A stretch of DNA of 64,000 bases from Clostridia bacterium. GTDB lineage: Bacteria; Bacillota; Clostridia; Christensenellales; Aristaeellaceae. A program made the position numbers and the translations under genes. The stretch's first letter is position 1, and each line of letters opens with the position of its first letter. Location: NCBI GenBank assembly GCA_017521565.1, contig JAFXCE010000126.1, positions 1 through 64,000 of the forward strand, read 5' to 3'. Under the pieces are notes generated by a model. That model was not told the DNA's origin. It worked only from the letters and a program-made list of their open reading frames with translations, and ran no database searches. Shown here one piece after another: positions 34,538 to 50,507 of this stretch.

Positions 34538-35743
34538 ATGTCCATTTTCGGCGTATGGATGTGGCCTCACAGCGTTGCTGTCAGCGGCGCTGAAAAAGCT
34601 GCGGCGCTCTGTGCAGACATCGGCATATCGGATATCTATTTTCTGACAAAGGGTCTGTCGGGCATAGCCTCCTGCCGGAGCGCGTTTGCCCCGCAGGATG
34701 ATGACCGCGATCTCCTTGCCGAACTGCTCCAAGCTGCGCACGCGCGCGGTATCCGCGTACACGCATGGCTGACCTCCACCAGCGATGAGCATTACAAGCA
34801 TCTTTTTCCTGATAGCGGACGCTGCCACTATACCCGGGGAAAGGACAAGGGATTGATCGCCCTGACCGACTGCGGATACCTTTCCTACATGGAGCAATTC
34901 GTGCGCGAACTGTGCCGGAATTATGCCATCGACGGGCTGCATCTTGATTATATCCGCTACAACCATCTGCTTTACGGCTGGTCCAAGGATGATCAGGCTC
35001 GCTACGCAGCATCCGGTGCGGATATTGCACATCTGCGCCGCCTCATGGATAAAACCTTTATCAGCAATCAGGATCCCAATGCGATCTTTGATGCATACCG
35101 TTCGGGAGATGAAAGTGTTCTCGCCCTCGCCCAGGTCCGGCGTCTCGATGTTCTGCGCTTTGCGCAGGCGCTGACCGCATGCGCACGTGCAGAACGAAAG
35201 GAGCTGATTCTCAGCGCCGCGCTGATGCCGGAAGGCGCATATGACGACTTGGCATTTTCGGATCTGCACTACGGCCAAAGCTATCAGGATGCTGCCGGTT
35301 TATATGATTACGTCCTTCCGATGGCCTATTCGCATGCCTATCGGAAAGACAGCCGGTGGGTTCGTTCTGTCGCGGAAGGTACGCTGAAAAAAGGCCTGCG
35401 GGCCGTCATGGGGCTGCACGCCTACGACGGCGGAACCGCCGCTTCCCTGCACGCCGATATGCATGCGCTCGGGCAGATCCCCGTCTGCGGCGTATGCCTG
35501 TTCCGCTTTGGCGCCTTTGCCGTCGCTATCCCGGACGGCGCCTCCCTGCGCATCATCAATCCGCTTGATCAGCCCATCACTTCCGTAACATCAGCCGGCG
35601 GCGATGCTCTCCTTGGCGGCGCGCTTGCCCCCGGCTGCGAGACAAGGATTCCCCTGCCCCCGACCTGTTCCCTCCTGCGCGCATTCTGTGGAGACAGCGA
35701 AATCTGTCTTTATACCGCAGACCAGATCACGACAAAGAAATAA
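34538..35743 (+). CDS. Glycoside-hydrolase-like protein (GHL10-type TIM barrel)
   Basis: A 401-residue protein. IGISDIYFLTKGLSG, HARGIRVHAWLTS and DGLHLDYIRYNHLLYG follow the pattern of GHL10/DUF187-like barrels, which are related to glycosidases; the DGLHLDYIRY strand is the hallmark. YDYVLPMAYSHAYRKDS is a later barrel strand. There is no signal peptide, so it acts inside the cell. The last 80 residues look like a small beta domain. It is the first gene of an operon with the LOR/SDH and GH20 genes, and GGAGGATCGCAT precedes the ATG. Confidence 0.75.
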   Translation: MSIFGVWMWPHSVAVSGAEKAAALCADIGISDIYFLTKGLSGIASCRSAFAPQDDDRDLLAELLQAAHARGIRVHAWLTSTSDEHYKHLFPDSGRCHYTRGKDKGLIALTDCGYLSYMEQFVRELCRNYAIDGLHLDYIRYNHLLYGWSKDDQARYAASGADIAHLRRLMDKTFISNQDPNAIFDAYRSGDESVLALAQVRRLDVLRFAQALTACARAERKELILSAALMPEGAYDDLAFSDLHYGQSYQDAAGLYDYVLPMAYSHAYRKDSRWVRSVAEGTLKKGLRAVMGLHAYDGGTAASLHADMHALGQIPVCGVCLFRFGAFAVAIPDGASLRIINPLDQPITSVTSAGGDALLGGALAPGCETRIPLPPTCSLLRAFCGDSEICLYTADQITTKK

Positions 35744-35757: not shown

Positions 35758-36846
35758 ATGTTTTCGCTTCGCCGCTATACCGCGCCAGACTTCACGCAGC
35801 CGCTCTTTACCCATGCGCCAGATGCCGTGTTCCTTCCCGCGCCGAAAGACGGCGTTGCGCCGGAAAACTTCCACGCCATGAGCATCTATCCGGAATACGT
35901 CAAGGTCGGCGGGCAATGGCTGCTTGCCGAGGAAAGCCGCATGGACTGTGCCGCCGTTTTGGAACAAGGCCGCATCGCCGTCCGCGAATTTCGCCTTCTG
36001 AAGGAGGGGGACATGGTGCTCATCGGGCGGACGGAGCGCTGCGAGGAGGGAATTTATCTGCATGCCACTGGCTTCTCCCGGCAGGAAACGGAGCAGGAGG
36101 CCTTCTCCTTCCGGCGCAGCCGCAGCCGAGAAACCGCCTATTCACAGGATTACACGGAGCTGTACGATCTGCTGCGCCATGAGCGTGAGCACGGCCGCAT
36201 TGTGTGGGTTCTTGGGCCGGCGTTCTCCTTTGACAAGGACGCACGCGATGCAATGAGCTGGCTGATTGAAGCCGGATATGTACATGCCATCCTCGCCGGC
36301 AACGCGCTGGCGACGCATGATCTGGAGGGCGCGTATCTCGGCACAGCGCTGGGCCAGGACATCTATACCCATATCTCCCAGCCCAACGGACACTACAACC
36401 ATCTGGAAACCATCAACCGCGTCCGTCTGCACGGAAGCATTGACGCATTCATCCGTGAGGAAGGCATGGACAACGGTATCATCTACAGCTGCGAAAAATG
36501 CGGCGTGCCCTATGTGCTGGGCGGTTCCATCCGCGATGACGGCCCGCTGCCGCCGGTGTATGGCAATGTATATGAAGCGCAGGACGCTATGCGCAGCCAT
36601 CTGCGCACGGCCACAACCGTCATCTGCATGGCCACTATGCTGCACACCATCGCCTCCGGCAACATGACGCCCTCCTATCGCGTGACCGCTGACGGAACCA
36701 TCCGCGAGGTATACTTCTATTGCGTGGACGTCAGCGAATTCGCCATCAACAAGCTGGGCGACCGCGGAAGCCTGAGCGCCCGCGGCATCGTCACCAATGT
36801 TCAGGACTTTGTGGTTCTCCTTCAGAAAAACCTGAGTTCAACCTGA
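35758..36846 (+). CDS. LOR/SDH-type protein (TIGR00300, archaeal ornithine cyclodeaminase-like)
   Basis: A 362-residue protein. The N-terminal 100 residues and the C-terminal part resemble the LOR/SDH conserved region of TIGR00300: VWVLGPAFSFDKDARDAMSW, then EAGYVHAILAGNALATHDLE, then GHYNHLETINRVRLHGSIDA. In archaea and cyanobacteria this domain catalyses ornithine cyclodeamination or forms part of the arginine dihydrolase ArgZ/AgrE. A CEKCGVPYVLGGSIRDDGPL segment follows. The surrounding genes are glycosidases, so amino-acid specificity here is uncertain. It starts 14 bases after the previous gene with AAAGAGGTG. Confidence 0.7.
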   Translation: MFSLRRYTAPDFTQPLFTHAPDAVFLPAPKDGVAPENFHAMSIYPEYVKVGGQWLLAEESRMDCAAVLEQGRIAVREFRLLKEGDMVLIGRTERCEEGIYLHATGFSRQETEQEAFSFRRSRSRETAYSQDYTELYDLLRHEREHGRIVWVLGPAFSFDKDARDAMSWLIEAGYVHAILAGNALATHDLEGAYLGTALGQDIYTHISQPNGHYNHLETINRVRLHGSIDAFIREEGMDNGIIYSCEKCGVPYVLGGSIRDDGPLPPVYGNVYEAQDAMRSHLRTATTVICMATMLHTIASGNMTPSYRVTADGTIREVYFYCVDVSEFAINKLGDRGSLSARGIVTNVQDFVVLLQKNLSST

Positions 36847-36875: not shown

Positions 36876-38648
36876 ATGATTCTGTTTCCCCAGCCGCGCA
36901 GCCTTCAGCTTCTTGGCGGCACGTATTCCCTGCCGTTTGGCGCACAGCACCGTGAACTCACAGCGTTTTTCAAAGCTATCCGCAGCGGTATGCCGGGCGT
37001 CTGCGTTACGTTTTCCCCGCTGCTTGACCGGGAGGAATACCATCTTTCCATCGACGCACAGGGCGTAAGCATCCTCGTCTCTTGCGAGGAGGGACTTTTC
37101 CGCGCCATCACTTCCCTGCATCAGATGCTCCTGCGCGGCAAGGGCGTTCTCCCCTGCGTTTGCATCGAGGACAAACCCGAGCTGCCCCGCCGCGGCTACA
37201 TGCTTGATATCAGCCGCGGCCGAAAGCCGAAGATGGAAACGATCAAGACCATGATCGACTTCCTTGCCGCACTCAAATACAACGAGTTCCAGCTGTATAT
37301 GGAGGGCGACTGCTTCAAGTACGCGGCTTATCCCAAGGAGACCGCACATTTTGACTGCCTCACGCCCGAAGATATTCAGGAGCTTGACCGCTACTGCCGA
37401 GAGAGATTCATTGACCTCGTGCCCAATCAGAACTCGTTTGGCCATATGTATACCTGGCTGAAAAAACCGGACTTCCATCACCTCGGTCTGTTCGAGCGCG
37501 AAGACGAGGTCCCCTCCACGCTCAATCCGCTCCTGCCGGAGAGCTTTGAATTCGTCTGCAACCTCTATGCCTCCCTCCTGCCGCATTTCACCTCGGATTA
37601 CGTGAACATCGGTCTTGATGAGGCCTACGGCCTTGGCCGCTATCAGATCGAGGCATACTGCCGCGAGAAAGGCAAGGACGTCGTCTTTATGGAATGGCTG
37701 AATAAGCTGAGCGACCACATTAAGGCGACCTACGGCAAGAAGGTCATGTTCTGGGCAGACATGATTTACAACTATCCTCAGAGCTATCACATGGTCCCCA
37801 AGGACGCCATCGCGCTGGAATGGGGCTATGAACTGATCCAGTCCCAGCGGATGACCGATCACTGCATTGCTTACCGCAATGCCGGTGTGCGCTACTACGT
37901 CTGTCCCTCCGTGAACACGCACGGCAGCCTGACCAGCCGTATGGATGTAACCACGTTCAACATCCGCACAAGCGCGGAGCTTGCCGTTGAGTACGGCGCG
38001 GAAGGCCTGCTGCTCACCGACTGGGGCGACGGCGGCCATCCGCAAAGCTGGGTATGGAGCATGACGCCCATCGCCCTCGCCGGTCAATACGGCTGGAACA
38101 CCGGCAAGCCGCAGGACGGCGAATCCTTCAAGGCGGATTTCATCCGGAATTCCGAAGCGTTTGTCGATGAGGTCTTCTTTGGCGGTGCAAGCGTCTCGCG
38201 CCTGATGTACCGCATGGCCAACTACTATCTGCTTGAGCCTGAGCGCGTACACGTATGCACGATGAGCGCCAAGCATCTGGGCATCCCGCTGCATGAGACG
38301 CGCTACGCGCACCTGTTTGACATGAAGGACAGCGGCGATGATTTCTACTTTGACAACGTGACGGATTACGTCCGCCGCGTGATGGCGGACATCGAAAAGC
38401 TCTCCTTTGACGAACTGCTCAAGCGCGAAATCCGCCTGACTGCGCGGCTGATTGAGCTGGGCAGCGAACTGTGCAAGGTCAAGCTGCACCCGCAGCAGTC
38501 CATCGCCAAGGCGCAGGAGCTGGCCGATATGATCGACTGCATTCTGCCCGAATACACGGAAATCTGGAACATCCGCAACTATGAGATGGGCATCGAGCGC
38601 TTTGTGAATCACCTCAAATCCAGAAGGGACGAGCTTCTCGCACTATAA
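36876..38648 (+). CDS. Glycoside hydrolase family 20 (beta-N-acetylhexosaminidase-like)
   Basis: A 590-residue protein. The N-terminal domain is followed by a barrel with GYMLDISRGRKPKMETIKTM, then KYNEFQLYMEGDCFKYAAYP, LVPNQNSFGHMYTWL and VNIGLDEAYGLGRYQIEAYC. The Asp-Glu in IGLDEA lies where the GH20 catalytic pair is expected. There is no signal peptide, so substrates are probably imported oligosaccharides or glycopeptide fragments. The ATG at 36876 follows AAAGGAGG. A near-perfect 30-base hairpin follows the gene as a terminator. It is the last gene of the three-gene operon. Confidence 0.82.
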   Translation: MILFPQPRSLQLLGGTYSLPFGAQHRELTAFFKAIRSGMPGVCVTFSPLLDREEYHLSIDAQGVSILVSCEEGLFRAITSLHQMLLRGKGVLPCVCIEDKPELPRRGYMLDISRGRKPKMETIKTMIDFLAALKYNEFQLYMEGDCFKYAAYPKETAHFDCLTPEDIQELDRYCRERFIDLVPNQNSFGHMYTWLKKPDFHHLGLFEREDEVPSTLNPLLPESFEFVCNLYASLLPHFTSDYVNIGLDEAYGLGRYQIEAYCREKGKDVVFMEWLNKLSDHIKATYGKKVMFWADMIYNYPQSYHMVPKDAIALEWGYELIQSQRMTDHCIAYRNAGVRYYVCPSVNTHGSLTSRMDVTTFNIRTSAELAVEYGAEGLLLTDWGDGGHPQSWVWSMTPIALAGQYGWNTGKPQDGESFKADFIRNSEAFVDEVFFGGASVSRLMYRMANYYLLEPERVHVCTMSAKHLGIPLHETRYAHLFDMKDSGDDFYFDNVTDYVRRVMADIEKLSFDELLKREIRLTARLIELGSELCKVKLHPQQSIAKAQELADMIDCILPEYTEIWNIRNYEMGIERFVNHLKSRRDELLAL

Positions 38649-38705
38649 CCCCTCTACCCCATACACGAAAAAACGTCAATCTGTCGTGTATCCGTAAAAC
38701 CGTTT

Positions 38706-38735
38706 GTGGAGCGCATCGGTATCGATGCGCTCCAC
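38706..38735 (+). terminator. Terminator of the GH20 operon
   Basis: GTGGAGCGCATCG (38706-38718) pairs with CGATGCGCTCCAC (38723-38735) around GTAT, followed by TTCTTATAT. Confidence 0.75.
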
Positions 38736-38772
38736 TTCTTATATCAGCATATGTGACAGCGTTGCTCGAAAC

Positions 38773-38883: not shown

Positions 38884-38998
38884 GATGCTCTTTTGGTACA
38901 CCAAAGGGTATATGGACGCGCCAACTTATCTGTCAGGCAAATTGGAATTTGTCGAATAGACAGAAACTGAAAGTTTCGTTATTTAAAGCTGGAATATG

Positions 38999-39499: not shown

Positions 39500-39567
39500 G
39501 ATATTCACTTCCAAATTCAAGTTTGATTAGCTGATTTTACAATAGCATAATTTGCCCGGATATACAA

Positions 39568-39603
39568 GAACAGGCACAGCAATACGATTTGCTGTGCCTG
39601 TTC
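39568..39603 (-). terminator. Terminator of the small membrane protein gene
   Basis: GAACAGGCACAGCA pairs perfectly with TGCTGTGCCTGTTC around ATACGATT; the minus-strand transcript then reads TTGTATAT. Confidence 0.8.
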
Positions 39604-39639
39604 ACCGTTTTATGAAACTCCCGTTTTGCACCGGTGTTT

Positions 39640-39936
39640 TCAATTGCTGTTTTGCTTCTTGTTTGCCTGATCCAACCGGTAATTGCGCGCATACATCGCC
39701 ACATCCAGCAGCACCATGCACAGGTTGAGCACATAGAAGAACATGACGTACCACTTATATGAACCGCCGATGCTCTTCGACGCGATGCCGCAGACATAGC
39801 CGACGCAGATCATGATCAGAAAGCCAAGGCTTTTGCCCTTCGTCGTTCGCGCCTTATAGGACTTCATCACGTTCATCGGCCACGAGCAGCCAAAGCACAC
39901 AACCATCAGAATCTCAAGAATCTCCGCTGCGTTCAT
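39640..39936 (-). CDS. Small SemiSWEET/PQ-loop-like membrane protein
   Basis: A 98-residue protein with three hydrophobic helices. FGCSWPMNVMKSYKARTTKG KSLGF-type sequence (a Pro in helix 1 and the KARTTKGKS loop) is characteristic of SWEET/PQ-loop half-transporters. SemiSWEETs transport sugars as dimers. The sequence is short and the substrate unknown. GAGGTTTTTCC precedes the ATG. It lies 35 bases after the C39-like peptidase gene on the same strand. Confidence 0.75.
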   Translation of the reverse strand: MNAAEILEILMVVCFGCSWPMNVMKSYKARTTKGKSLGFLIMICVGYVCGIASKSIGGSYKWYVMFFYVLNLCMVLLDVAMYARNYRLDQANKKQNSN

Positions 39937-39971
39937 TGGAAAAACCTCCTCATTTGAATGCTTCCATCCCC

Positions 39972-40553
39972 TTATTCCTTCCAGAACAGGAAATATGGGC
40001 GCTCAAAGCAATCCTTTTCAATCTCGGAAAAATCCGCGTAAGCGTCCGTCCCGTCAAGACGGACCTTTTCCTTTCGGCCCTGCTTTTCAAAGCGGTCGCT
40101 GCCTTCCTTGTACATCGGATCCCAGACCTTGATCTCGGTTCCGTTCGCTCCGGCGAGGACGATATAGTGTCCCGAATCGGAAAACACGCCGATATGCCCT
40201 TCCCTGTCACCGCGGACGTTGGCAATGATCATGCCGCGCCCTTCCTGCAGAAAGCGCAGCGCTTCCTGCCCATCTTCGGTATCGCGCACCTGCAGGCCAA
40301 CATGCCTTGCAAACGCAGGCGCATAGATATACAGATCTGTGCCGTAGCCTTCGCGCGCGCCGCAGGCCTTGGCGAGCTTTGCGCTCTCCTCCGGCGGGAA
40401 CGCAATCCCCAGCATGTTTTCCGCCACCATCGAAGCCGCGCAGACGCCGCAGCCATTGTTGGCGATATTGCCGTTCTTCGCGCCAACCGGAGACGGATAC
40501 GGCACATGCTCATAATCCAGCTGGCAATAAAACGCCGTCTTCTTTTCAGCCAT
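39972..40553 (-). CDS. C39-like (papain-fold) peptidase domain protein
   Basis: A 193-residue protein. NNGCGVCAASMVAENMLGIA carries the Cys nucleophile; GHIGVFSDSGHYIVLAGANG holds the His, and IKVWDPMYKEGSDRFEKQG the Asp of a Peptidase_C39_2 domain. No signal peptide is seen, so it works in the cytosol or leaves by another route. Its ATG overlaps the end of the M20 amidohydrolase gene by eight bases; a coupled pair that could both cut peptide or amide bonds. Confidence 0.8.
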   Translation of the reverse strand: MAEKKTAFYCQLDYEHVPYPSPVGAKNGNIANNGCGVCAASMVAENMLGIAFPPEESAKLAKACGAREGYGTDLYIYAPAFARHVGLQVRDTEDGQEALRFLQEGRGMIIANVRGDREGHIGVFSDSGHYIVLAGANGTEIKVWDPMYKEGSDRFEKQGRKEKVRLDGTDAYADFSEIEKDCFERPYFLFWKE

Positions 40554-41763
40554 TGTCCTTCGCCTCCTCCGGCATGGTCATCCCTTCAATGCCATGCATG
40601 TTGTCCAGCACGAACTGCACAAAGACCTTCACGCCCGTCTCAAGCGCATCCTCGTCAATGTCCCAGTCCCTGTTATGCGCCGGATGGCAGCAGCCCTTTG
40701 CCTCATTGCGCATGCCAAGGCCAAAGAGCAGACCCGGCTTTTCCTTCTCGTAATAGGCAAAGTCCTCCGCGCCCGGGGAAGGCGCCAGCACAATCACCTT
40801 TTTGCTGCCGACGACCTTGCGCGCAGAAGCGGTAAACGCCTCGTACATCGCAGGATCGTTGTGCGCGCCGGGCAGCGGCTCGCCGGACCACTCAAGCGAC
40901 CAGGTGGTTCTCGACTGCTCCGCCGTCAGGCGGATAAGCTCTTCCAATCTCTTCTGCGCCCACGCCATCGTCCTGTCATGCAGGCAGCGAATGGAACCCC
41001 TCAGGACGCACTTGTCCGCGTTGGCGGCGACGGTCTCGCCCGCCTGCATGCAGGTTACGCTCATCACGCAGGTATCAAACGGGTCCACCTCGCGGGAGAC
41101 GAGCATCTGGATGCCGTTATAGATCTTCACGCCTGCCGCCAGCGCATCGATGCCCGCATGCGGGGACGCAACATGCACCGCCTTGCCCCCGAGCGTAATC
41201 GTAAACGCCACGGAAGAGGAATTGGTCACCCCGGGGTTGGATGAAATCACGTGCGTCTCATCCACGCAGTTCACATGGCACATGATGATACAGTCGATGT
41301 CCTTCATCACGCCATGCTCGCACATGGTCTTCGCGCCGCTGGGCCGGCTCTCCTCGCAGGGCTGGAACAGCAGCTTCACGCGGCAGGAAAGACGGTCTCG
41401 AATCGCATGCAGCGCTTTCGCCGTTCCAAGGAGCATGGCCGTATGCGCATCATGCCCGCAGGCATGCATCACGCCGTCATTTTGGGAGCGATACGGCTTG
41501 TCATGGTTGTTTTCCAGAATCGGCAGCGCGTCCATATCCGCCCGGATGCCGATGGTGAAGTCCGTCTTTTCCGGGTTGATCGTCGCCACGATCGTATTGC
41601 GTCCATACCTGTCCGCTTCGTATTCGACGCCGATGCCGTCCAGTTCGCGGCGCACAAGCGCAGCCGTCCGGTCCAGATCCCAGCGAAGCTCCGGATGCAT
41701 ATGCAGCTCACGGCGGATCGCCACAAGCTCATCCTGGCAGACAGGGGCGATGGTATAATCCAT
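40546..41763 (-). CDS. M20 family amidohydrolase
   Basis: A 405-residue protein. RRELHMHPELRWDLDRTAAL, GIRADMDALPI, MHACGHDAHTAMLLGTAKAL and PCEESRPSGAKTM show the M20D metal site (Cys, His, Glu, His). SPGAEDFAYYEKEKPGLLFG gives the last His/Asp-type ligand zone. Such enzymes hydrolyse N-acyl amino acids or related amides (hippurate, N-acetyl amino acids, indole-acetyl conjugates). GGGAAGGCAT precedes the ATG. It overlaps the C39-like gene and lies beside an ABC transporter for a sugar-like substrate. Confidence 0.9.
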   Translation of the reverse strand: MDYTIAPVCQDELVAIRRELHMHPELRWDLDRTAALVRRELDGIGVEYEADRYGRNTIVATINPEKTDFTIGIRADMDALPILENNHDKPYRSQNDGVMHACGHDAHTAMLLGTAKALHAIRDRLSCRVKLLFQPCEESRPSGAKTMCEHGVMKDIDCIIMCHVNCVDETHVISSNPGVTNSSSVAFTITLGGKAVHVASPHAGIDALAAGVKIYNGIQMLVSREVDPFDTCVMSVTCMQAGETVAANADKCVLRGSIRCLHDRTMAWAQKRLEELIRLTAEQSRTTWSLEWSGEPLPGAHNDPAMYEAFTASARKVVGSKKVIVLAPSPGAEDFAYYEKEKPGLLFGLGMRNEAKGCCHPAHNRDWDIDEDALETGVKVFVQFVLDNMHGIEGMTMPEEAKDNG

Positions 41764-41833
41764 ATGCCTTCCCTCTTTTCAAAGCAGTTAAGGGGTTATT
41801 CTGCATGCACAGATCAAACCCCTTTCCGGAAGG

Positions 41834-41859
41834 AAAAAGGCGGAGGCTAAGCCTCCGCC
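41834..41859 (-). terminator. Terminator of the ABC transporter operon
   Basis: GGCGGAGGC pairs perfectly with GCCTCCGCC around TAA; the minus-strand transcript ends in TTTTTCC, just after the binding protein gene. Confidence 0.9.
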
Positions 41860-41895
41860 CCATGGGGTTTGATTGTGTCGATTTCGGAAAATCGA

Positions 41896-43332
41896 TTACT
41901 GCGCGAGGTACGCGTCCAGCTGCGCCTGAGCCTCAGCCTGAACAGCCTCGATGCCGGCGGCCTTCAGTTCTTCCTTGATGGTCTCAAGCTTCGCATCGAT
42001 GTCCAGCGTGCCGGTCAGCATCTCAGCAGTGTACTTCTCCATGACCGCGGAGCAGGCCGCACATTCGGCTTCCACGTTGGTCTTGTCGAAGGTGAAGGTG
42101 CCCAGGGTGGAGACGATCGCATTCTCATAATCAGCGAAGATCTCTTCCCAGTCATAGTAGGAATCGGTGGTGCAGGAAGCATTCACGACAGAACCGGTCA
42201 CGAAGCCGTCCATGGACCAGTTGTTGTTGCCCTGCTCGGTGCGCTCGACAACCTTATTGCCGTTGACTTCGGTATAGTTGAAGTGCGTGCCCTCAACGCC
42301 GTAGCGGAGGATGTCGCGGAAGGTGCGGTCGGTGTTCAGCAGCTCGAGGTACTTCAGGCAAGCGATGGCCTGCTCCTCAGAAGCAGCGGCGTTGATCGCG
42401 TTCATCGCGCCGCGCATGGTCGCGGTGGACATGAACGGGCCGGCGTAGCTCGCGCCATGGACAACGATGCCCGCCCAGCTGGAGTAGCCCGCATAGTAGC
42501 CCTTCCAGGCAGAGCCGGAACGGACGGCCGCGCGGATGTCAGAACCGATGGACTCGATGGTCGCGGCGTCGGGGTTGATGTAGCCCAGATCATACCACTT
42601 GTGCAGCAGCTGGTAGCGCTCCATCAGAACCTCATCCTCCCAGAACGGGATGATCTTGTTCTCACGGTCGGTACCGGCGAGATGATACGGAGAGCACAGG
42701 TAGTTGCCCGCGATCCACTGCGCGCTGTTGGTCATACCGGTCAGGCCGCCCTTGCCCATCATCAGCGGGTAGAGGTCGTCATAGTTCTCCTTGTACGCCT
42801 TGAGCAGCGGCTCAAGCTCAGCAAAGGTCATTTCGTCCGGAAGCTCGCAGCCGATGGCTTCGAAGCGTTCCTTATCCAGACGGAAGAACTGCTGGCTGGC
42901 CATGTCCTTCAGGGTCGGCACAGCGTAGATCTTGCCGTTCAGGGAGCCGGCGACGTCCCAGTACTTCTGATCGATGGTCTCATAGAGCGCCGGCGTGGCG
43001 GTCTTGACCAGATCAGTGATGTCATAGAACATCTCGTTGATCGCGTTGTCAGCGAAGTTGTTCGCCCAGTCGCAGGTGAACGTCATGTCGTAGGGTTCGC
43101 CGGTCTGCATGCCCAGACCAAACTGCTCTTCATTCTTGAAGATGAGTTCGACTTCGACGCCGATCTTCTCAGCAGAGTAAGCGTTGGCAGCATCAACGAC
43201 CATCTGGGTATCGATCGGGGCGTCGCCGCTGGCGTAGACCCACCAGACGATCTTCTGGGTTTCGGCGGAAGCGGTGCAGGCAACGGCGAGCACCAGCATC
43301 AGCGCGAGCGCGAGAGACAGGAACTTCTTCAT
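41896..43332 (-). CDS. Extracellular solute-binding protein (YtcQ/LplA type, DUF3502)
   Basis: A 478-residue protein with a signal peptide (KKFLSLALALMLVLAVACTA) and a Cys at about residue 20 as the lipid anchor. QKIVWWVYASGDAPIDTQMV starts the mature part. The middle and the C-terminal domain (ending LKAAGIEAVQAEAQAQLDAY) fit family-1 sugar-binding proteins with the DUF3502 ending. The substrate may be a complex glycan fragment. AAAGGAGGTTTTCGC precedes the ATG. It follows two permease genes, and no ATP-binding subunit is present, as is common with LplBC-type systems that share MsmK. Confidence 0.92.
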   Translation of the reverse strand: MKKFLSLALALMLVLAVACTASAETQKIVWWVYASGDAPIDTQMVVDAANAYSAEKIGVEVELIFKNEEQFGLGMQTGEPYDMTFTCDWANNFADNAINEMFYDITDLVKTATPALYETIDQKYWDVAGSLNGKIYAVPTLKDMASQQFFRLDKERFEAIGCELPDEMTFAELEPLLKAYKENYDDLYPLMMGKGGLTGMTNSAQWIAGNYLCSPYHLAGTDRENKIIPFWEDEVLMERYQLLHKWYDLGYINPDAATIESIGSDIRAAVRSGSAWKGYYAGYSSWAGIVVHGASYAGPFMSTATMRGAMNAINAAASEEQAIACLKYLELLNTDRTFRDILRYGVEGTHFNYTEVNGNKVVERTEQGNNNWSMDGFVTGSVVNASCTTDSYYDWEEIFADYENAIVSTLGTFTFDKTNVEAECAACSAVMEKYTAEMLTGTLDIDAKLETIKEELKAAGIEAVQAEAQAQLDAYLAQ

Positions 43333-43391
43333 GCGAAAACCTCCTTTAAGTTCAACTAAAGCGGCGCTTGGCCGTTTGTTGCAAAAATGGA

Positions 43392-44324
43392 TCATCCCTT
43401 GACGGCGCCAATGGTCAGGCCGCCGACAAAGTAGCGCTGGAAGAACGGATACGAGCAGGCAATGGGCAGAACGACAACCATGACGATGGCCATGCGCATC
43501 GTTTCCGAAGGAAGATTCTTCATGGACTCTTCCCTGAAATAGTCCTCATTGCGCGCCATAAAGGAAATGTTCTTTTCGATGGAGATCAGAACGTACTGCA
43601 GCGGATACAACTCGCGATGGTTGCTGTCGATGTAGAGCATCGCGCCGTACCACATGTTCCAGTAGTTGAAGGTGAGGAACAGGCCGATCGTCGCGATAAC
43701 CGGCAGGGAAATCGGCAGCACCAGCTGGGTGAAGATGCGGAGCTGGCTCGCACCGTCGATCTTTCCGGATTCGATGATGCCGTCCGGCAGCGTCGTCTGG
43801 AAGAACGTACGCATGACGATGACGTAGAACGTCGAGCACGCGCCGGGCAGGATCATCGCCCAGTAGGTATTCTTGAGATGGTAGATCTGGGTATTGACCA
43901 TATAGCGCGCCACAAGGCCGCCCGAAAACAGCATCGGGATGATCAGCAGCCACGTATACAGGCCCTTCATGTAGTAATTCGGGCGGGACAGCACATAGCC
44001 CAGCGTCGAGGTGAGCACCAGACCAATCAGCGTACCCACAAGGGTGATGCCGACCGAATTGACAAACGACCGGCCGATATAGTCCTTGGACTGCCAGAGA
44101 TATTTGTAGGATTCCAGCGAAAGCTCCGCCGGGAAAAAGCTGTAGCCGTTCTGGGCGATGGACGCCTCGGAAGAAATCGAAATGATGAACACGAACACCA
44201 CCGGCAGGAACGTGATGATCGCCAGCAGAACGAAGATCAGCGTAAAGAGCGCATTGGTCGTCGGTTTGATGCAGTTAAAGCGGTTAAAACCATCCTGCGG
44301 AATCCGCTTTGCCTTCTTTTCCAT
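43392..44324 (-). CDS. Sugar ABC transporter permease (YtcP/LplC type)
   Basis: A 310-residue membrane protein with six predicted helices. SFVNSVGITLVGTLIGLVLT and the EAA loop ESGKIDGASQLRIFTQLVLP identify the inner-membrane permease. FQRYFVGGLTIGAVKG is the typical C-terminus of the LplC/YtcP type. It is 59 bases ahead of the binding protein gene and 25 after the partner permease. Confidence 0.92.
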   Translation of the reverse strand: MEKKAKRIPQDGFNRFNCIKPTTNALFTLIFVLLAIITFLPVVFVFIISISSEASIAQNGYSFFPAELSLESYKYLWQSKDYIGRSFVNSVGITLVGTLIGLVLTSTLGYVLSRPNYYMKGLYTWLLIIPMLFSGGLVARYMVNTQIYHLKNTYWAMILPGACSTFYVIVMRTFFQTTLPDGIIESGKIDGASQLRIFTQLVLPISLPVIATIGLFLTFNYWNMWYGAMLYIDSNHRELYPLQYVLISIEKNISFMARNEDYFREESMKNLPSETMRMAIVMVVVLPIACSYPFFQRYFVGGLTIGAVKG

Positions 44325-44349
44325 GGCTTATACCTCCCTCCTGCCGGAA

Positions 44350-45330
44350 TCAGAACAGACCGCTTTCCGGATCAATCTTCTTGACAACGATGTTGGCGAT
44401 GATCAGCAGGATGCAGCCCAGCACGCTCTGCAGCAGCGCCACAGCAGAAGAATAGTTATAGTTGTTGCTCTGGATCAGCGCCTTGTGCACGTAGACATCA
44501 AGCGTCTGCGTGACGTTGATGAGGGAGTTGGAGTCGCGCGTGACCTGAAAGAAAAGGCCAAAGTCCGTGGAGAAGATGCTGCCCACGTTCATGATGAACA
44601 TGATAGAAATCACCGGACGCAGCAGCGGAACGGTAATCCCCCACGTTTGCTGCCACTTGTTCGCGCCGTCGATGACCGCGCTCTCATAAAGGCTCTGGTC
44701 GATGCCGGTGATGGTCGCCATATACACGACCATCGAGTAGCCAAAGGTCTTCCATGTATTGATGAATACCAGCAGATACGGCCAGTATTTGGGATCCTGA
44801 TACCAGAGAATCGCCTCGCCGCCCATGGAGACGATCAGCGAATTGACGAGGCCCTTGTCCGTGGAGAGGAAAGCAAAGACGAAATAGCTGATGACCACCC
44901 ACGACAGGAAATGCGGCAGGAATACCGCAGTCTGGCAGACCTTGGCCACCTTTCGCGAATACAGCTGGGTGATCATGATCGCCAGCGCAACCGGCAGCGT
45001 AATGCCAATGATGATGAATATGATATTATATCCGACGGTATTGCGGAAAATATTGGCGATATCCGGCGAACGGAACAGAAACTCGAAGTTCTTAAGGCCC
45101 ACCCATTTGCTGGAGACAAACAGGCTGTAGAGGAAGCCCTTGCCGGGCTTATACTTATAGTTCTTAAAGGCGAAGACGATGCCGAACATCGGCACATAGC
45201 AAAAGGCGATCAGCCATGCGATCGTCGGCAGAGAGAGCAGCGTAAGCTCCAGATCGTCCCATGTGAACTTTCTGCGCTTTTTCCTGATCGGCGCAGCCTC
45301 ACCCTTGACGGCCAGATTGTCCTTGCGCAT
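44350..45330 (-). CDS. Sugar ABC transporter permease (LplB type)
   Basis: A 326-residue membrane protein. The N-terminal cytosolic part is basic (IRKKRRKFTWDDLELTLLS). PTIAWLIAFCYVPMFGIVFA is the first helix, and YESAVIDGANKWQQTWGITV the EAA loop. It pairs with the LplC-type permease. I chose the ATG at 45330, preceded by GGAGGTGCGGAGG; the longer open frame upstream lies over the promoter. It is the first gene of the leftward ABC operon. Confidence 0.9.
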   Translation of the reverse strand: MRKDNLAVKGEAAPIRKKRRKFTWDDLELTLLSLPTIAWLIAFCYVPMFGIVFAFKNYKYKPGKGFLYSLFVSSKWVGLKNFEFLFRSPDIANIFRNTVGYNIIFIIIGITLPVALAIMITQLYSRKVAKVCQTAVFLPHFLSWVVISYFVFAFLSTDKGLVNSLIVSMGGEAILWYQDPKYWPYLLVFINTWKTFGYSMVVYMATITGIDQSLYESAVIDGANKWQQTWGITVPLLRPVISIMFIMNVGSIFSTDFGLFFQVTRDSNSLINVTQTLDVYVHKALIQSNNYNYSSAVALLQSVLGCILLIIANIVVKKIDPESGLF

Positions 45331-45387
45331 CCTCCGCACCTCCGTTTCTGGATACAGGAAAGAACACGGCTCTCCCGCAGCAGATTC

Positions 45388-45416
45388 AGTATAGCACAGT
45401 CCACATGCGATAGCAA
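45388..45416 (-). promoter_or_regulatory. Promoter of the sugar ABC operon
   Basis: On the minus strand TTGCTA (45411-45416), a 17-base spacer and TATACT (45388-45393), about 58 bases before the permease ATG. It faces away from the divergent kinase operon at 45538. Confidence 0.75.
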
Positions 45417-45537
45417 GCATTTTTCAACCCTTTTTATAAATACATTATTCATTAAAGGGAATTGTACATTCGCGTCGAATAGATAAGTAATTGGTATGCC
45501 CATCGGGCGTCAAAGCGCAAAGAAGGAGGCGAAGCGC

Positions 45538-46503
45538 ATGCAGCAAGGTCTGCTGATCGGCATCGACGGAGGCGGCACACATTCCACCGCTGTAGCCGCA
45601 TGGCCGGATGGACGGATTGCCGCCGTCGCCCATGGCGGAGGATTGAATTACCACAACATCGGCGTGGATACCGTGCGCCGCCGCCTTCAGGATATGGTAC
45701 AGGAGCTGTGCGAAAAGGCCGGCGCGCCGCTGCATCGTGTTTGCGTGGGCATGTCCGCGCTGGACGGCCCTGCCGACGAACAGACGCACGCGCTGTTCAC
45801 TTCCGATCTCATCACCCGCGAGCAGCTGGATCTTCAGTCGGATGCATACATCGCGCTGATGGGTTTTACGCGCGGCGAGCCCGGCATGATCGTCATCTGC
45901 GGCACGGGTTCCATGCTCCTGCTGCGCGACGAAGCGGGCGCTCAGCATGTCAGCGGCGGCTGGGGCTATCTCCTCGGGGATACCGGCAGCGGTTATACCC
46001 TCGCGCGCGAGGGACTGATTGCTGCCATCGACGCAACCGAGGGCCTTGGCTGTCCCACAGTGCTTGAATCCCTCGCCTGCCGGTATTTCGGCACATCCAC
46101 CCTGCGCCAGACGATCGACTGCATCTACGCGCCGGATTTTACGCCCGACCGGATGGCAGGCTTTGCGCGGCATGTGATTCAAGCGGCAGACGACGGGGAT
46201 ACGGCGGCAAGCGACGTCCTCCAGAGCAACATGAACCGCCTCGCGCGGCAGACCGTATGTCTGCTTGAAAAGGCGCCCGCTGCCAGACGCGTAGGCCTGT
46301 ACGGCGGCATATTTGCCCACAGCGAAAAGGCGCAAGCCTGCTTCACCCATACGCTGCGCGCGCTCGCGCCCCGGGCGAAAATCTGCGCGCTTGAATACAC
46401 GCCCGAGTTAGGCGCAATCATCCACCTGATGCAAAAAGAAGGTCTGCTCAGCCAGGAGCGGCTCAGCCTTTTAAAACAAAGCTATGAGGAACATTTGCGA
46501 TGA
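45538..46503 (+). CDS. BadF/BadG/BcrA/BcrD-type sugar kinase (N-acetylglucosamine kinase-like)
   Basis: A 321-residue protein. LIGIDGGGTHSTAVAAWPDG is the phosphate-1 motif of the BadF/N-acetylglucosamine kinase group. VICGTGSMLLLR, GGWGYLLGDTGSGYTLAREG and VGLYGGIFAHSEKA complete the ASKHA fold. Members phosphorylate N-acetylglucosamine or N-acetylmuramic acid. The ATG at 45538 has AAGGAGGCGAAGCGC ahead. The stop overlaps the SIS gene as ATGA. It is divergent from the sugar ABC operon, so it probably acts on the imported sugar. Confidence 0.88.
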   Translation: MQQGLLIGIDGGGTHSTAVAAWPDGRIAAVAHGGGLNYHNIGVDTVRRRLQDMVQELCEKAGAPLHRVCVGMSALDGPADEQTHALFTSDLITREQLDLQSDAYIALMGFTRGEPGMIVICGTGSMLLLRDEAGAQHVSGGWGYLLGDTGSGYTLAREGLIAAIDATEGLGCPTVLESLACRYFGTSTLRQTIDCIYAPDFTPDRMAGFARHVIQAADDGDTAASDVLQSNMNRLARQTVCLLEKAPAARRVGLYGGIFAHSEKAQACFTHTLRALAPRAKICALEYTPELGAIIHLMQKEGLLSQERLSLLKQSYEEHLR

Positions 46504-47237
46504 GTACAATCAATACCTATTTTGATAACCTGCAGGCGCTGCTTGCCCGTACGCTTGAAACCCAGCAGTCTTCTATGGAAACCGCCGCCCGCAGGATTGC
46601 GGACTGCATGAAGGGCGGCGGCATGATCTATACCTTCGGCACAGGACACGGTCATCTGCTCGCGCTGGAAATCTTCTATCGCGCAGGCGGCATGGCGCGC
46701 GTCTGTCCGATCATGGACGACAAGCTGATGCTGCACGTCAGCGCAGCGGGCAGCACGCTGGAAGAACGCAAGGAAGAATGGGTTCCCCTTCTCCTTGAGC
46801 GCTATCCCATTAAGGAAAACGACATCCTGATTTCCATCTCCAATTCCGGCAGAAACGCTGTGCCGGTTTTGCTGGCCAGGGAAGCGCGGGCGCGCGGCGC
46901 ATATGTCATCGCGCTCACCAGCATGAACCACACAACCGCCGTCACCTCCCGCAACAGCCTGAACCTGCGTCTGTTTGAAACCGCCGATCTGATTCTTGAC
47001 AACGGCGGCGTGCTGGGCGACGCGGCGATCTCCTTTGCAGACGGCTCCATGGTCGGCCCCACCTCCACCGCAGTGGGCGCAGCGATGCTGCAGGCGATCG
47101 TCTGCCGTGTCAAGGAGCTCTCCCTTGATGAGGGCTTTGAGGCCGACTTCTTTAAGTCCAGCAACGTAGACGGCGGCGATGCATGGAATGACCGCCTGAT
47201 TGAACGCTATAAAGATATGATCCCCGGTCTTCTTTAA
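46500..47237 (+). CDS. SIS domain protein (UPF0309 type)
   Basis: A 245-residue protein. GMIYTFGTGHGHLLALEIFY and ISISNSGRNAVPVLLAREAR hold the SIS sugar-phosphate-binding loops. LDNGGVLGDAAISF and GPTSTAVGAAMLQAIVCRV fit UPF0309. SIS proteins isomerise or cleave phosphosugars, for example as MurQ-like etherases or deaminases. The ATG overlaps the kinase stop, so kinase product to SIS protein is a likely metabolic step. Confidence 0.85.
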   Translation: MSTINTYFDNLQALLARTLETQQSSMETAARRIADCMKGGGMIYTFGTGHGHLLALEIFYRAGGMARVCPIMDDKLMLHVSAAGSTLEERKEEWVPLLLERYPIKENDILISISNSGRNAVPVLLAREARARGAYVIALTSMNHTTAVTSRNSLNLRLFETADLILDNGGVLGDAAISFADGSMVGPTSTAVGAAMLQAIVCRVKELSLDEGFEADFFKSSNVDGGDAWNDRLIERYKDMIPGLL

Positions 47238-47251
47238 GAAGGAGGAACGTT

Positions 47252-48475
47252 ATGCGCGCAGGCTTTGGCAAATCGGAACTGACGCCGCCCATGGGCGTCG
47301 AGCTTGCAGGCTACGGCTATTATCTCGGCCGGTGCGCACAGTCCGTGCGCGATCCGCTCTATGCGCGCGCCCTGCTGCTTGAAGATCATGGCGAACGAGC
47401 GCTGATCATCAGCTGTGATCTGCTCGGCCTCAGCCGCGGCGTTTGTGCGCAGGTCTTTGATCACGCCGCTGCGCTTGGCATTGCGCAGGAGCGCGTAATG
47501 ATCGTCAGCATCCACACGCATACAGGCCCCACGATCAAGTATCATGAGGGCTGCGGCTTCGTCAGCGACGAATATGTGAATACCGTCGCCCCGATCATCT
47601 GCCGGGCAATCGATGCGGCTGCAGATGACCTTGATGAGGTCACTGCGCTCGATTTTGTCTCTGCGCCGTTTGACGGCGAGCACATCTACAACCGCACCAT
47701 CAAAGACGGCCCGGTCGATCGTACTGTGCGCGGCTTCACCTTCCGCCGCAGGAAGCATTCCCCCATCGCCGCCGTCAGTGCAGCCTGCCATGGCGTATTC
47801 CGCGGGCGTGTCACAGCGGTCTCTGCCGACTTTGCCGGTGAGATCTGCCGCATTCTGGATACTCAGGGGATGCAGACGATCTACCTCAACGGACTTTGCG
47901 GCGACATCGATCCAACCAAGCAGGACGATGCGCTGCTTGATTCCTTCGCCGCGCTGGTTGCACGTCATTTCACGCAGGATAGCCGCACGCTTTCTCCGTC
48001 TCTGCGCGGCGAGACGCTCCCCTTTACCCTTCAGCTGCTCCCCGTCACCATCGATGACATTCATGCCGCTGCCGAGCAGGCAGAGCGCCGAGCTGGCGGC
48101 GAGGACATGCCTGCCGCGCGTGTCGCCCGGACATGGGAGCGGGAAATGCTTCAGAAATTCTCCGCACTTGAAACAAAGGAGCATATCACCGCCAAGCTCC
48201 TGATTCTGGGCGGCGTGCCCGTTCTTGCGCTCCCCTTTGAGGGCTTTACGCAGATCGGCATGGATATCCGCCGCCTGTGCGGCCGGGAGGACGCGCTGAT
48301 TCTGGGCTGCGCAGAGGAACTGCTCGGCTATCTTCCCACCAAAGACGATATTTCGCGCGGCACCTATGCGGCGCTTGAATCCACATTTCTTTACAAGCGT
48401 CTGCCCGTTGTTCCCGGGGAAGCGGAACGCCTCGGTCAGGAAATGGGCGCTGCACTCGAAAGGATTCTTACATGA
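47252..48475 (+). CDS. Neutral/alkaline ceramidase N-terminal domain-like protein
   Basis: A 407-residue protein. RAGFGKSELTPPMGVELAGY is the opening of the neutral ceramidase-like domain, and VMIVSIHTHTGPTI holds its zinc-binding His pair. CHGVFRGRVTAVSADFAGE and YLNGLCGDIDPT are later conserved parts. Members in Firmicutes are poorly studied, lack the C-terminal domain of true ceramidases, and occur in glycan operons. There is no signal peptide, so the substrate is inside the cell. It is 14 bases after the SIS gene, and its stop overlaps the ROK gene as ATGA. Confidence 0.8.
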   Translation: MRAGFGKSELTPPMGVELAGYGYYLGRCAQSVRDPLYARALLLEDHGERALIISCDLLGLSRGVCAQVFDHAAALGIAQERVMIVSIHTHTGPTIKYHEGCGFVSDEYVNTVAPIICRAIDAAADDLDEVTALDFVSAPFDGEHIYNRTIKDGPVDRTVRGFTFRRRKHSPIAAVSAACHGVFRGRVTAVSADFAGEICRILDTQGMQTIYLNGLCGDIDPTKQDDALLDSFAALVARHFTQDSRTLSPSLRGETLPFTLQLLPVTIDDIHAAAEQAERRAGGEDMPAARVARTWEREMLQKFSALETKEHITAKLLILGGVPVLALPFEGFTQIGMDIRRLCGREDALILGCAEELLGYLPTKDDISRGTYAALESTFLYKRLPVVPGEAERLGQEMGAALERILT

Positions 48476-49623
48476 AATCACTTGATCAATCCGCCATCCG
48501 AAAGCAAAACATCCGCAGGATCCTCGATCTGCTGACCGTTCAGGCTCCCCGCACACGCCAGTCTCTTGCGGAGGCGACGGGTCTGAGTTTAATGACGGTC
48601 ACCAATCTCGTCGATCAGCTCAAAGAGCAGCAGGTGCTGGAGCTTGCGCCTGTTCCGCGCTGCGGCGGGGATCGTCACAGTTCCGGACGCAAGGCGGAAA
48701 ACATCTCCCTTCGCGGCAGCGGTCACGCCTGGCTGATCGTCGATCTCTCCGGAAAGCATTTCCGCTATACCCTGCTCGGCTTTGATCTCGCCGTCCTGCA
48801 TGAACACAACTGCGCTGCGGAAGGTGAATATCTCTCCCGGCTGACCGCATTTCTCAGTGCGATCCGCGAGGAAATCTCCGCGCCGCTGGCGGGTCGTTCT
48901 CTGCTGGGTGTCGCCGTCGTTACACCGGGCCCCTATGAAATCAGCTGCGATACGGTGTACAATCAGCGTCTGCCCGAACTCAATGATGTAAGAATCAAGG
49001 CTCTGATGCAGCGCTGCCTCGGCAATTTTGATTACTACGTAGATGAGGACGTCAAATTCGCCGTGCGGGCGTTTGCGCCCATGAGCAATCAGGATTCCTG
49101 CGAGCTGCTGTATTATCTGTTTATCGGCGAGGGCGTCGGGGGATCCGCCGTGCATAACGGCAACATGCTCCGCGGCCTGAATGCCACGGCGGGCGACGCA
49201 GGCCAGCTGACCACGCCGGAGGGCGTCACCTATGAAAGCCTGATTTCCCTCTCCTCTTTTGCCGCGTTGCTCGGCTGCGGCGCGCAGGATAACGAGCGGC
49301 TCCTGCAGCAGCTTGAGGCGTATGCCGCCGAACATCCTAAAGCCTATCTTTCCGCGCTGCAAAAAGCCGCGGCAACGGTTGGCGATATGCTCTACAATGT
49401 GCTCTGGGTGCTTGATCCTGGACATATCATCATCGATTGTCGCTATGTGTTTTCATTCCGGGAGGAATTCATCGGATTCATTGCCGAATACATCGCACGT
49501 CGCCTCGCCGCCGCCGGGAAAAGAATGCCCACCATTGCCGCTGCCCCACAGGGAATGAGCAGCGTCGTGCGCGGCGCTGTTCAGGTGCTGCAGCGCGAAT
49601 GGATCGAGCGAATTCTCTCCTGA
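48472..49623 (+). CDS. ROK family transcriptional regulator
   Basis: A 383-residue protein. Residues 5-65 are a winged helix (SAIRKQNIRRILDLLTVQAP, then LAEATGLSLMTVTNLVDQL). The rest is a ROK domain: VAVVTPGPYEI, YYVDEDVKFAVRAFAP, YYLFIGEGVGGSAVHNG and NATAGDAGQL. The CxCGxxGCxE zinc motif of ROK kinases is not evident, so it is probably a regulator that senses a sugar. It is the last gene of the kinase-SIS-ceramidase operon and the likely regulator of it and of the divergent ABC transporter. Confidence 0.88.
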   Translation: MKSLDQSAIRKQNIRRILDLLTVQAPRTRQSLAEATGLSLMTVTNLVDQLKEQQVLELAPVPRCGGDRHSSGRKAENISLRGSGHAWLIVDLSGKHFRYTLLGFDLAVLHEHNCAAEGEYLSRLTAFLSAIREEISAPLAGRSLLGVAVVTPGPYEISCDTVYNQRLPELNDVRIKALMQRCLGNFDYYVDEDVKFAVRAFAPMSNQDSCELLYYLFIGEGVGGSAVHNGNMLRGLNATAGDAGQLTTPEGVTYESLISLSSFAALLGCGAQDNERLLQQLEAYAAEHPKAYLSALQKAAATVGDMLYNVLWVLDPGHIIIDCRYVFSFREEFIGFIAEYIARRLAAAGKRMPTIAAAPQGMSSVVRGAVQVLQREWIERILS

Positions 49624-49642
49624 TGCACCCAGTATTATCCTG

Positions 49643-49676
49643 CCTGTGTCCTGCACAGAGGAACACAGGCTTTTTC
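49643..49676 (+). terminator. Terminator of the kinase-ROK operon
   Basis: CCTGTGT (49643-49649) pairs with ACACAGG (49663-49669), followed by CTTTTTC. Confidence 0.8.
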
Positions 49677-49697
49677 ATTTGCAAAGGAGTGTACCGT

Positions 49698-50507
49698 ATG
49701 TTTCTGCATGCTAAAAACGGCACCATCTCCCTCGCAGGCGATTCCATGCATTACATCCGCTTCGGCAGCGGCAGCAAAACCCTCGTCATGCTCCCCGGTC
49801 TCGGCGACGGCCTGACCACCGTCAAGGGCACCGCGCTGCCCATGGCGTTCATGTATCGCGCTTATGCCGGGGACTACACGGTTTATATGTTCAGCCGCAG
49901 GAATCATCTGCCTGCGGGCTGCAGCACGCGCGACATGGCCCGCGATGTAAAGGACGCGATGGAGGCGCTGGATATCCAAAAAGCCGATCTCATCGGCGTG
50001 TCCATGGGCGGCATGATCGCGCAGCACTTCGCAGCAGATTACCCCAAGTGCGTCAGAAAACTCATCCTTGTTGTGACCTCTGCGGAGCCCAACCCCATTT
50101 TGTCCGAGTCCATCCACGAATGGACAGCGCTTGCCCGACGCGGCGATCATACGGCCCTCATGGACAGCAATGTGCGGCGCATGTACTCTGATGCCTACTA
50201 CCGCAAAAACCGATACCTGATCCCCATCATGGGCAGGCTTACCAAACCCAAATCCTATGACCGCTTCTTCATTCAGGCTGACGCCTGCCTGACCCACAAC
50301 GCTGCAGACCGCCTTGAAACAATCGAAGCGCCCACGCTGGTTATCGGCGGCGCGCAGGACCGCGCGCTCGGCGGCGACGCCTCACGGAGAATCGCTGCGT
50401 CCATCCCCGGCGCCAAACTTAGCATCTATGCGCAATGGGGACACGGGCTATATGAGGAAGCCAAAGACTTTAACCAGCTCGTGCTCGGATTCCTGCGAAA
50501 CGGATAA
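49698..50507 (+). CDS. Alpha/beta hydrolase
   Basis: A 269-residue protein. HYIRFGSGSKTLVMLPGLGD gives the oxyanion region; the nucleophile is Ser in LIGVSMGGMIAQHFAADYPK. VIGGAQDRALGGDASRRIAA holds the Asp and YAQWGHGLYEEAKDF the His. The substrate is unknown. AAAGGAGTGTACCGT precedes the ATG. It has its own transcription unit after the kinase-ROK terminator. Confidence 0.85.
   Translation: MFLHAKNGTISLAGDSMHYIRFGSGSKTLVMLPGLGDGLTTVKGTALPMAFMYRAYAGDYTVYMFSRRNHLPAGCSTRDMARDVKDAMEALDIQKADLIGVSMGGMIAQHFAADYPKCVRKLILVVTSAEPNPILSESIHEWTALARRGDHTALMDSNVRRMYSDAYYRKNRYLIPIMGRLTKPKSYDRFFIQADACLTHNAADRLETIEAPTLVIGGAQDRALGGDASRRIAASIPGAKLSIYAQWGHGLYEEAKDFNQLVLGFLRNG

Follow-up and report, generated by a model that had tools for sequence, protein, structure and literature searches.

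We describe here an operon from a Clostridia bacterium (Christensenellales; Aristaeellaceae) in which a SIS-domain protein of the NagS family is paired with a metal hydrolase of the neutral-ceramidase fold. It lies in the window, a stretch of 64,000 nucleotides from contig JAFXCE010000126.1 of the draft genome GCA_017521565.1 (85% complete), whose gene order was read over positions 34538-49623. The conserved pairing of SIS and ceramidase-like genes in an amino-sugar setting is real, and no description of it was found in our literature search. This search, from which most subscription papers were absent, found no paper joining ceramidase with amino-sugar or SIS terms and none naming UPF0309, and the papers on PF04734 were off-subject by title. 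The locus reads as an amino-sugar operon with a potentially new step. Specifically, we propose a module for uptake and catabolism of a beta-linked N-acylhexosamine glycoside or conjugate, a reading whose chances we judge to be about even.

Four genes on the forward strand form the operon. They encode a BadF/BcrA-type sugar kinase (45538..46503; PF01869, 113.3 bits), the SIS-domain protein of the PRK02947/UPF0309 (NagS) family (46500..47237; NF002805, 263.6 bits at a cut-off of 135), the neutral-ceramidase-fold metal hydrolase without export signal, a predicted amide hydrolase (47252..48475), and a ROK-family transcriptional regulator with a winged helix-turn-helix (48472..49623; PF00480, 42.1 bits, and PF13412, 23.9 bits). 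The kinase and SIS genes share a 4-base ATGA overlap, as do the hydrolase and ROK genes, and a gap of 14 bases separates SIS from hydrolase. The kinase start was placed at ATG 45538, which is preceded by AAGGAGG, within a longer open reading frame from 45496. On the reverse strand lie the genes of a sugar ATP-binding cassette (ABC) importer, namely an LplB-type permease (44350..45330; PF00528, 38.8 bits), an LplC-type permease (43392..44324; PF00528, 28.1 bits) and a solute-binding protein with DUF3502 (41896..43332; PF12010, 85 bits; 5SWA, 1.1e-32, and 5MLT, 2.2e-32). The start of the latter was placed at 43332 behind a GGAGG-type site, and its N-terminus looks by eye like a lipoprotein signal (LAVAC). 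Farther along this strand are an M20 amidohydrolase (40546..41763; TIGR01891, 309.3 bits at a cut-off of 153.75) and a C39/papain-like cysteine hydrolase (39972..40553; PF13529, 28.3 bits at a cut-off of 24), with reading frames overlapping by 8 bases. An earlier note made from the letters of this DNA had described a four-gene operon with these overlaps and spacing, facing an LplBC-type importer with DUF3502; coordinates and family models agree with it on all these points, and every gene family that it named is present. The span that it gave (40546..49623) does not cover the C39 gene, nor the stretch at 34538-38648 with GHL10-like, ArgZ-like and GH20 genes, which remain linked in near relatives.

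The hydrolase scores 30.7 bits on PF04734, under the gathering cut-off of 32.1, and a distant relative (L018) reaches 35.3 bits. Despite this score the neutral-ceramidase fold is settled, since the predicted structure matches the catalytic-domain fold of neutral ceramidases over 373-376 residues (2ZWS, 4WGK). The 407 residues of the protein align to residues 5-488 of 2ZWS, and the C-terminal domain is absent. H88, H90, R148, H180, E330, Y360 and Y372 are invariant in 22/22 rows of our alignment (A3). They correspond to H97, H99, R160, H204, E411, Y448 and Y460 of the ceramidase, which we take to be its metal-site residues; the places of H97/H99 and E411 come from the alignment, and the other four were matched by order and spacing only. 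The N-terminus is not signal-like by eye and the enzyme looks cytosolic, so that the intracellular ceramidase-like hydrolase suggested before is borne out in look, fold and metal site. Two distant ceramidase-like proteins (L231:6081-7454 and L224:6450-7871) have signal-peptide-like N-termini by eye; the family seems to have exported forms as well. One further locus contains two ceramidase-like matches (L035:4853-5572 and 10001-11224), one of which shares just 27% identity with the window protein.

Among solved structures, the SIS protein is closest to 3CVJ (2.9e-53) and NagS (9EOL, 9e-39). According to a 2025 report, NagS of Streptomyces (SCO4393) dehydrates N-acetylglucosamine (GlcNAc) 6-phosphate to 6P-chromogen I (product ion m/z 282.0387), which is deacetylated there by NagA, and is related to MurQ (PMC12680351). 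The same report gives H53, R64, E94 and D179 as essential and S91 and N228 as important, with activity retained in S54A (PMC12680351). In the alignment with 9EOL the counterparts in the window protein are H50, R61, E89 and D167 for the essential residues, and S85 and N222 for the two others. H50, E57, R61 and E89 are identical in 39/39 relatives of the clade and 31/31 of the phylum (70/70); the NagS-essential positions H50, R61, E89 and D167 are kept in 39/39 of the clade and in 31, 31, 31 and 29 of the 31 phylum relatives. Overall, 83/232 aligned residues are identical to NagS (35.8%), below the 58.7% taken as the mark of NagS proper, and the neighbors of the SIS gene are badF and cer, not dmdR1 as in NagS proper. 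It is likely that the chemistry is shared with NagS and that the substrate is different. The protein is predicted to be a phospho-amino-sugar lyase or isomerase.

Among 398 phylum-wide genomes, 68 contain the SIS family (E 1e-30) and 34 match the hydrolase profile (E 1e-15), with both present in 28 compared to 5.8 expected. In 24 of the 27 co-carriers besides the window genome the two genes lie no more than 5 kb apart, and in 16 no more than 600 bases; they are unlinked in G071, G361 and G369. For the neighborhoods, the genes of 37 phylum regions were clustered, six of these regions being from hydrolase genomes without SIS, and each label was assigned from a single member or a handful of members of its cluster. 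NagA is present in 12 loci (four proteins from three loci were tested, all above the TIGR00221 cut-off) and NagB-like proteins in 4, where the single tested copy is below the nagB cut-off. Other recurrent neighbors are Gfo/Idh (9 loci), GH3 (8), mannose-type phosphotransferase system (PTS)-like genes (7; read by eye, no family search), GH84 NAGidase (4), GlcNAc 2-epimerase (4) and DeoC (3). The amino-sugar setting thus persists at great distance from the window, whereas the importer, the kinase and the auxiliary enzymes vary, and consequently SIS and the ceramidase-like enzyme are the core pair. Four SIS-ceramidase-like loci (L195, L196, L199, L200) contain NagA copies and mannose-type PTS-like genes, and three of them (L195, L196, L199) also Gfo/Idh and a DeoC aldolase (209.7 bits for the L195 copy at a cut-off of 117.3); these three are possibly a whole pathway ending in aldolase cleavage. 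Tandem pairs of same-family SIS genes are found as well (L124:7789-10230, G031:C130, G051:C39), the pair in L124 being preceded by a BadF kinase with no ceramidase-like gene seen, and G009 encodes four SIS proteins that pass the cut-off.

The order and families of the genes, their co-occurrence, the fold and the conservation of catalytic residues were computed; from these we infer the sugar, the order of the SIS and amide steps and every reaction of the following chain. The LplBC permeases and the DUF3502 binding protein would import the glycoside or conjugate, from which an intracellular GH20 enzyme would release the N-acylhexosamine. After phosphorylation of the sugar, presumably by the BadF kinase, the NagS-family SIS protein would take the C2 proton of the phosphorylated N-acyl sugar and eliminate at C3, or rearrange it. 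The intracellular ceramidase-fold metal enzyme would then cut the amide, as a dedicated counterpart of the promiscuous action of NagA in Streptomyces, and the product would flow into central metabolism. We regard this as the most economical chain, and it has a precedent in Streptomyces, where NagA removes the acetyl group from what NagS makes (PMC12680351). M20 and C39 may assist the pathway as linked hydrolases by removing peptidyl or acyl groups, and the ROK protein is the putative regulator. In a narrower version of this chain, which is possible but rather doubtful, the NagS-family enzyme makes a 2,3-unsaturated (chromogen-I-type) enamide, and the ceramidase-fold enzyme cuts it to yield the acyl group, ammonia and a 3-deoxy sugar phosphate for an aldolase.

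A scan of genome contigs for relatives of the ceramidase-like gene gave 66 loci. The window and 46 of these make up a set of 47 loci, in which L022, L025, L026 and L063 entered as the same places L013, L012, L015 and L014. The 20 distant or fragmentary loci that were excluded (L067, L069-L087) have no badF, SIS or M20 match at E 1e-4, and L078 has a GH20 match. In 39/47 loci badF, sis and cer are contiguous on one strand. SIS is found near the ceramidase-like gene in 42, BadF in 41, M20 in 38, C39 and LplB in 27 each, the solute-binding protein in 23 and ROK in 17 of the 47 loci; these counts are lower bounds, several loci being cut by contig ends, and those for LplB, LplC and the binding protein take in low-identity sugar importers. 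The earlier note had named beforehand a failure of these families to co-occur elsewhere as speaking against its proposal; they do co-occur, M20 and C39 included. Directly 3' of the ceramidase-like gene an Amidohydro_3-type protein is encoded in L035, L039, L042, L043 and L055, three of which have no SIS in reach; the label rests on a family search of the L043 copy.

M20 and C39 follow downstream of the hydrolase on the same strand in L053, L059, L060 and L066, and in L041 (4609-6363, reverse strand) a single reading frame encodes C39 and M20 as a fusion of 584 residues. Of 200 family genomes, 34 contain C39 (E 1e-50) and 39 the hydrolase (E 1e-60), and 29 contain both versus 6.6 expected; these genomes share ancestry, which the Fisher values ignore, and the latter are therefore not probabilities of independence. 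Since C39 and hydrolase are on different contigs in 13 of the 29 genomes, some possibly through contig breaks, linkage alone may not explain this co-occurrence. Alternatively, the ceramidase-like enzyme could act first, on the imported conjugate, and strip a long acyl or peptidyl group from an amino sugar, or cut another amide, with kinase and SIS then processing the freed sugar in conventional fashion. Neutral ceramidases cut long N-acyl amides, the M20/C39 linkage and the fusion in L041 suggest several amide bonds in the substrate, and C39 tracks the hydrolase in the 29 of 200 genomes. However, the importer is of the sugar-importer type, and SIS accompanies the hydrolase phylum-wide, including loci where the sugar seems by eye to be imported by a PTS and would hence be phosphorylated and small. 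We regard this order of events as unlikely.

In C39, the columns C34, H128 and D144 are invariant in 15/15 rows (A4) and represent a candidate catalytic Cys/His/Asp set. Five of the 34 C39 genomes are without hydrolase, four of one genus (G520, G563, G596, G608) and G618. In these four, neither M20 nor any other gene closely related to one of the window adjoins C39, two of the contigs being short; in two of the four, LplBC-like permeases of 31-34% identity lie about 6 kb from C39. G618 has M20-C39 at a contig end. In a sample of 60 genomes, G014 contains a C39 gene with an in-frame stop, accompanied by no relative of another window gene within 12.8 kb, and G034 a weak C39 match (7.8e-22). Genus g328 (L244, L245, L246, L247) has C39 at 58-61% identity in genomes without a ceramidase-like gene and with no adjoining M20, which may point to an independent role of C39. 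Conceivably, the imported compound is a fragment of pseudomurein from herbivore-gut methanogens that C39 and M20 would open. In pseudomurein, GlcNAc is joined to talosaminuronic acid and the peptides are isopeptide-bound. However, a PCAT1 peptidase domain gets the same Z, a likeness in fold does not show function, C39 has no export signal by eye, and no uronic-acid enzyme was noticed, no search having been aimed at one. This origin of the substrate is very improbable.

The kinase passes the general BadF family (PF01869) and reaches 77.3 bits on the NagK model NF046058, below the cut-off of 370. Its nearest solved relatives are the hexokinase 2E2N (1.8e-31), the N-acetylmuramic acid (MurNAc)/GlcNAc kinase 8ZO3 (6e-25) and NAGK (2CH5, 1.9e-21). 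A hexosaminidase is near the ceramidase-like gene in 20/47 loci, as the window-type GH20 in 9 and as GH20C in 11. The amino-sugar context read from the letters is upheld by the NagK/MurK-type kinase, the SIS protein from the side of NagS and MurQ and the GH20 or GH20C nearby, and in distant relatives by NagA, NagB-like, GH3 and GH84 proteins. If the sugar were not an amino sugar, the hydrolase would cut an ester, a lactone or another C-N bond and SIS would be a plain aldose-ketose isomerase. The reaction is indeed not fixed by family resemblance, NagA copies elsewhere could serve any N-acetylhexosamine branch, and a DeoC aldolase is encoded in three related loci. However, the GH20, GH84, GH3 N-acetylhexosaminidase, NagA, NagB-like and GlcNAc-epimerase neighbors and the conserved NagS residues argue for an amino sugar, and a non-amino sugar is distinctly improbable.

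Salvage of muropeptides or MurNAc would give the enzymes other roles: BadF would be a MurK and SIS an etherase of the MurQ type, the ceramidase-like protein would be a lactyl-peptide amidase, M20 and C39 would trim the peptide and GH20 would remove GlcNAc. Consistent with this, 8ZO3 is the second-best solved relative of the kinase, a GHL10-like gene is nearby, and MurQ (TIGR00274) was not found at E 1e-20 in five in-genus carriers of 77-85% completeness, the window genome included. A profile alignment of SIS and a MurQ (probability 72%) pairs E57 with the SEC-motif glutamate of MurQ, presumably a catalytic residue. Arg61 as the match to the first catalytic glutamate of MurQ was rejected, because the profile alignment gives E57; this position is no argument against etherase chemistry. 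Likewise, the kinship of NagS and MurQ, described in PMC12680351, would fit. On the other hand, the SIS protein scores 22.6 bits on the MurNAc 6-phosphate etherase model NF003915 (cut-off 168), G029 holds badF-sis-cer and a separate MurQ, and in the 200 family genomes MurQ is present in 29/39 carriers versus 48/161 non-carriers (28/37 carriers after removal of the distant G033 and G584). Since most carriers have MurQ, SIS is not its general substitute. The in-genus anti-correlation (0/5 carriers versus 9/24 non-carriers) is small and reverses in the 200 genomes, and a role of SIS in place of MurQ is disfavored by co-occurrence. MurNAc as the sugar is thus weakened and disfavored, and we consider its salvage improbable. 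The earlier note had held that kinase and SIS fit N-acetyl amino sugars such as MurNAc; the amino-sugar neighbors speak for the general part of this claim, while MurNAc specifically is disfavored.

Several observations weigh against the proposed chain from kinase to ceramidase-fold enzyme. In the NagS report, homologues from outside the Streptomycetaceae with 25.7-35.7% identity had no or negligible GlcNAc 6-phosphate dehydratase activity, negligible for the one from Clostridium and none for those from Paenibacillus and Acidothermus (PMC12680351). The window SIS protein is as distant as these inactive homologues, and its substrate is therefore probably other than GlcNAc 6-phosphate. Position 51, at the place of NagS Ser54, is Gly or Ala in 39/39 members of the BadF-type clade and Ser in 31/31 phylum relatives; judging by this split, it is a possible marker of substrate class. 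Furthermore, from the Ser to the essential Glu the window protein is longer than NagS by one residue, an insertion also found in 3CVJ and in 18/18 proteins of alignment A5 (with Asn for Ser in one row). No SIS is in reach in 5/47 loci, 6/34 phylum hydrolase carriers are without SIS, and the shared ancestry of the co-occurrence genomes mentioned above belongs here as well. Two NagA copies above the cut-off are encoded elsewhere in the window genome, and in other loci ceramidase-like genes adjoin NagA or NagA-like ones, so that the need for a second deacetylase is not obvious. In G033 and G046, the NagA-like proteins encoded next to distant hydrolases stay below the cut-off (132-190 bits). NagA genes beside the hydrolase suggest that plain deacylation of N-acetylhexosamine 6-phosphate is already covered in these loci. 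The ceramidase-like enzyme as the sole stand-in for a missing NagA is ruled out by the two copies in the window genome and by the NagA or NagA-like genes beside the hydrolase elsewhere. In view of the homologues without activity, the deviating residues and NagA beside the hydrolase, we give the general chain an even chance and leave the enamide version at the doubtful level stated above.

The divergent control region between kinase and importer genes (45331..45537) contains blocks that are identical across the window and five relatives in a six-sequence alignment. A promoter-like site for the importer lies at 45416-45388 on the reverse strand (TTGCTA-17-TATACT with TG); promoter-like sites in 39800-49800 are scarcely above shuffles (6 versus 4.3, sd 2.1). 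No inverted repeat of at least 8 bases as a regulator site was found in 45325-45545. Between the binding-protein and M20 genes a consensus scan, which found 14 sites versus 8.3 in shuffles, placed a terminator-like stem (41837-41861, reverse strand; 11 pairs, 8 of them G-C). Hence, M20-C39 may be a transcript separate from the importer in the window genome. On the forward strand, beyond C39, the GH20 beta-N-acetylhexosaminidase is encoded at 36876..38648 (PF00728, 65.5 bits, and PF02838, 31.2 bits), with no export signal by eye. It is preceded by a GHL10-like glycoside hydrolase-like protein (34538..35743), a weak match to PF02638 of 31.0 bits (cut-off 27.9) in which no single stretch passes alone, and an ArgZ-like C-terminal (Rossmann) protein (35758..36846; PF21570, 207.1 bits), both of uncertain link to the pathway. 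GHL10-like genes are near in 9/47 loci, and ArgZ-like genes in 4/47 and also on contigs of G004 and G006. The ArgZ-like protein, free-standing between the GHL10-like and GH20 genes, is kept in near relatives and adjoins M20-C39 in L248. On the reverse strand, a Nudix gene (label by eye) lies between GH20 and the gene of a small membrane protein (39640..39936), which has no Pfam match, is near in 10/47 loci and is presumably SemiSWEET-like.

If the proposed chain is true, the ceramidase-fold family, found in 34/398 phylum genomes, gains a role outside sphingolipids. It would also offer substrates for the NagS homologues that, in PMC12680351, were assayed and left without one. Elimination chemistry that is a toxicity checkpoint in Streptomyces would then serve gut Clostridia as a nutrient route for amino sugars. 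The enamide version, if true, would make the ceramidase fold at home in central carbohydrate metabolism and reveal a phylum-wide, undescribed breakdown of N-acylhexosamines.

With neutral ceramidases (2ZWS, 4WGK; PF04734) the window hydrolase shares the catalytic-domain fold and the set of metal-site residues. In contrast to them, it has 407 residues rather than the 630-670 of the solved chains, about 18% identity, neither C-terminal domain nor secretion signal, and a linkage to sugar genes. GlcNAc catabolism by NagK, NagA and NagB resembles the locus in having a kinase, deacylation, a phosphosugar enzyme and a ROK-type regulator; however, no NagA or NagB was seen at the window locus, where SIS and ceramidase-fold enzymes are found instead and NagA is located elsewhere in the genome. 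MurK, MurQ and NamZ/AmiE serve MurNAc salvage, which likewise combines a BadF-family kinase and a MurQ-side SIS protein with hexosaminidase and amidases around. The window SIS, however, does not score as a MurQ, most carriers have MurQ in addition, and no MurNAc-specific gene was recognized at the locus. To the NagS system the window SIS is linked by the same SIS family with the essential residues kept and, on the window side by conjecture, by a reaction on a 6-phospho N-acylhexosamine with amide hydrolysis as the next step. It differs from NagS in its 35.8% identity, in Gly or Ala for Ser54 and in the one-residue insertion. Moreover, NagS in Streptomyces is a toxicity checkpoint beside dmdR1 with NagA as deacetylase (PMC12680351), whereas the window SIS belongs to a catabolic operon with a kinase, an importer and a ceramidase-fold enzyme.

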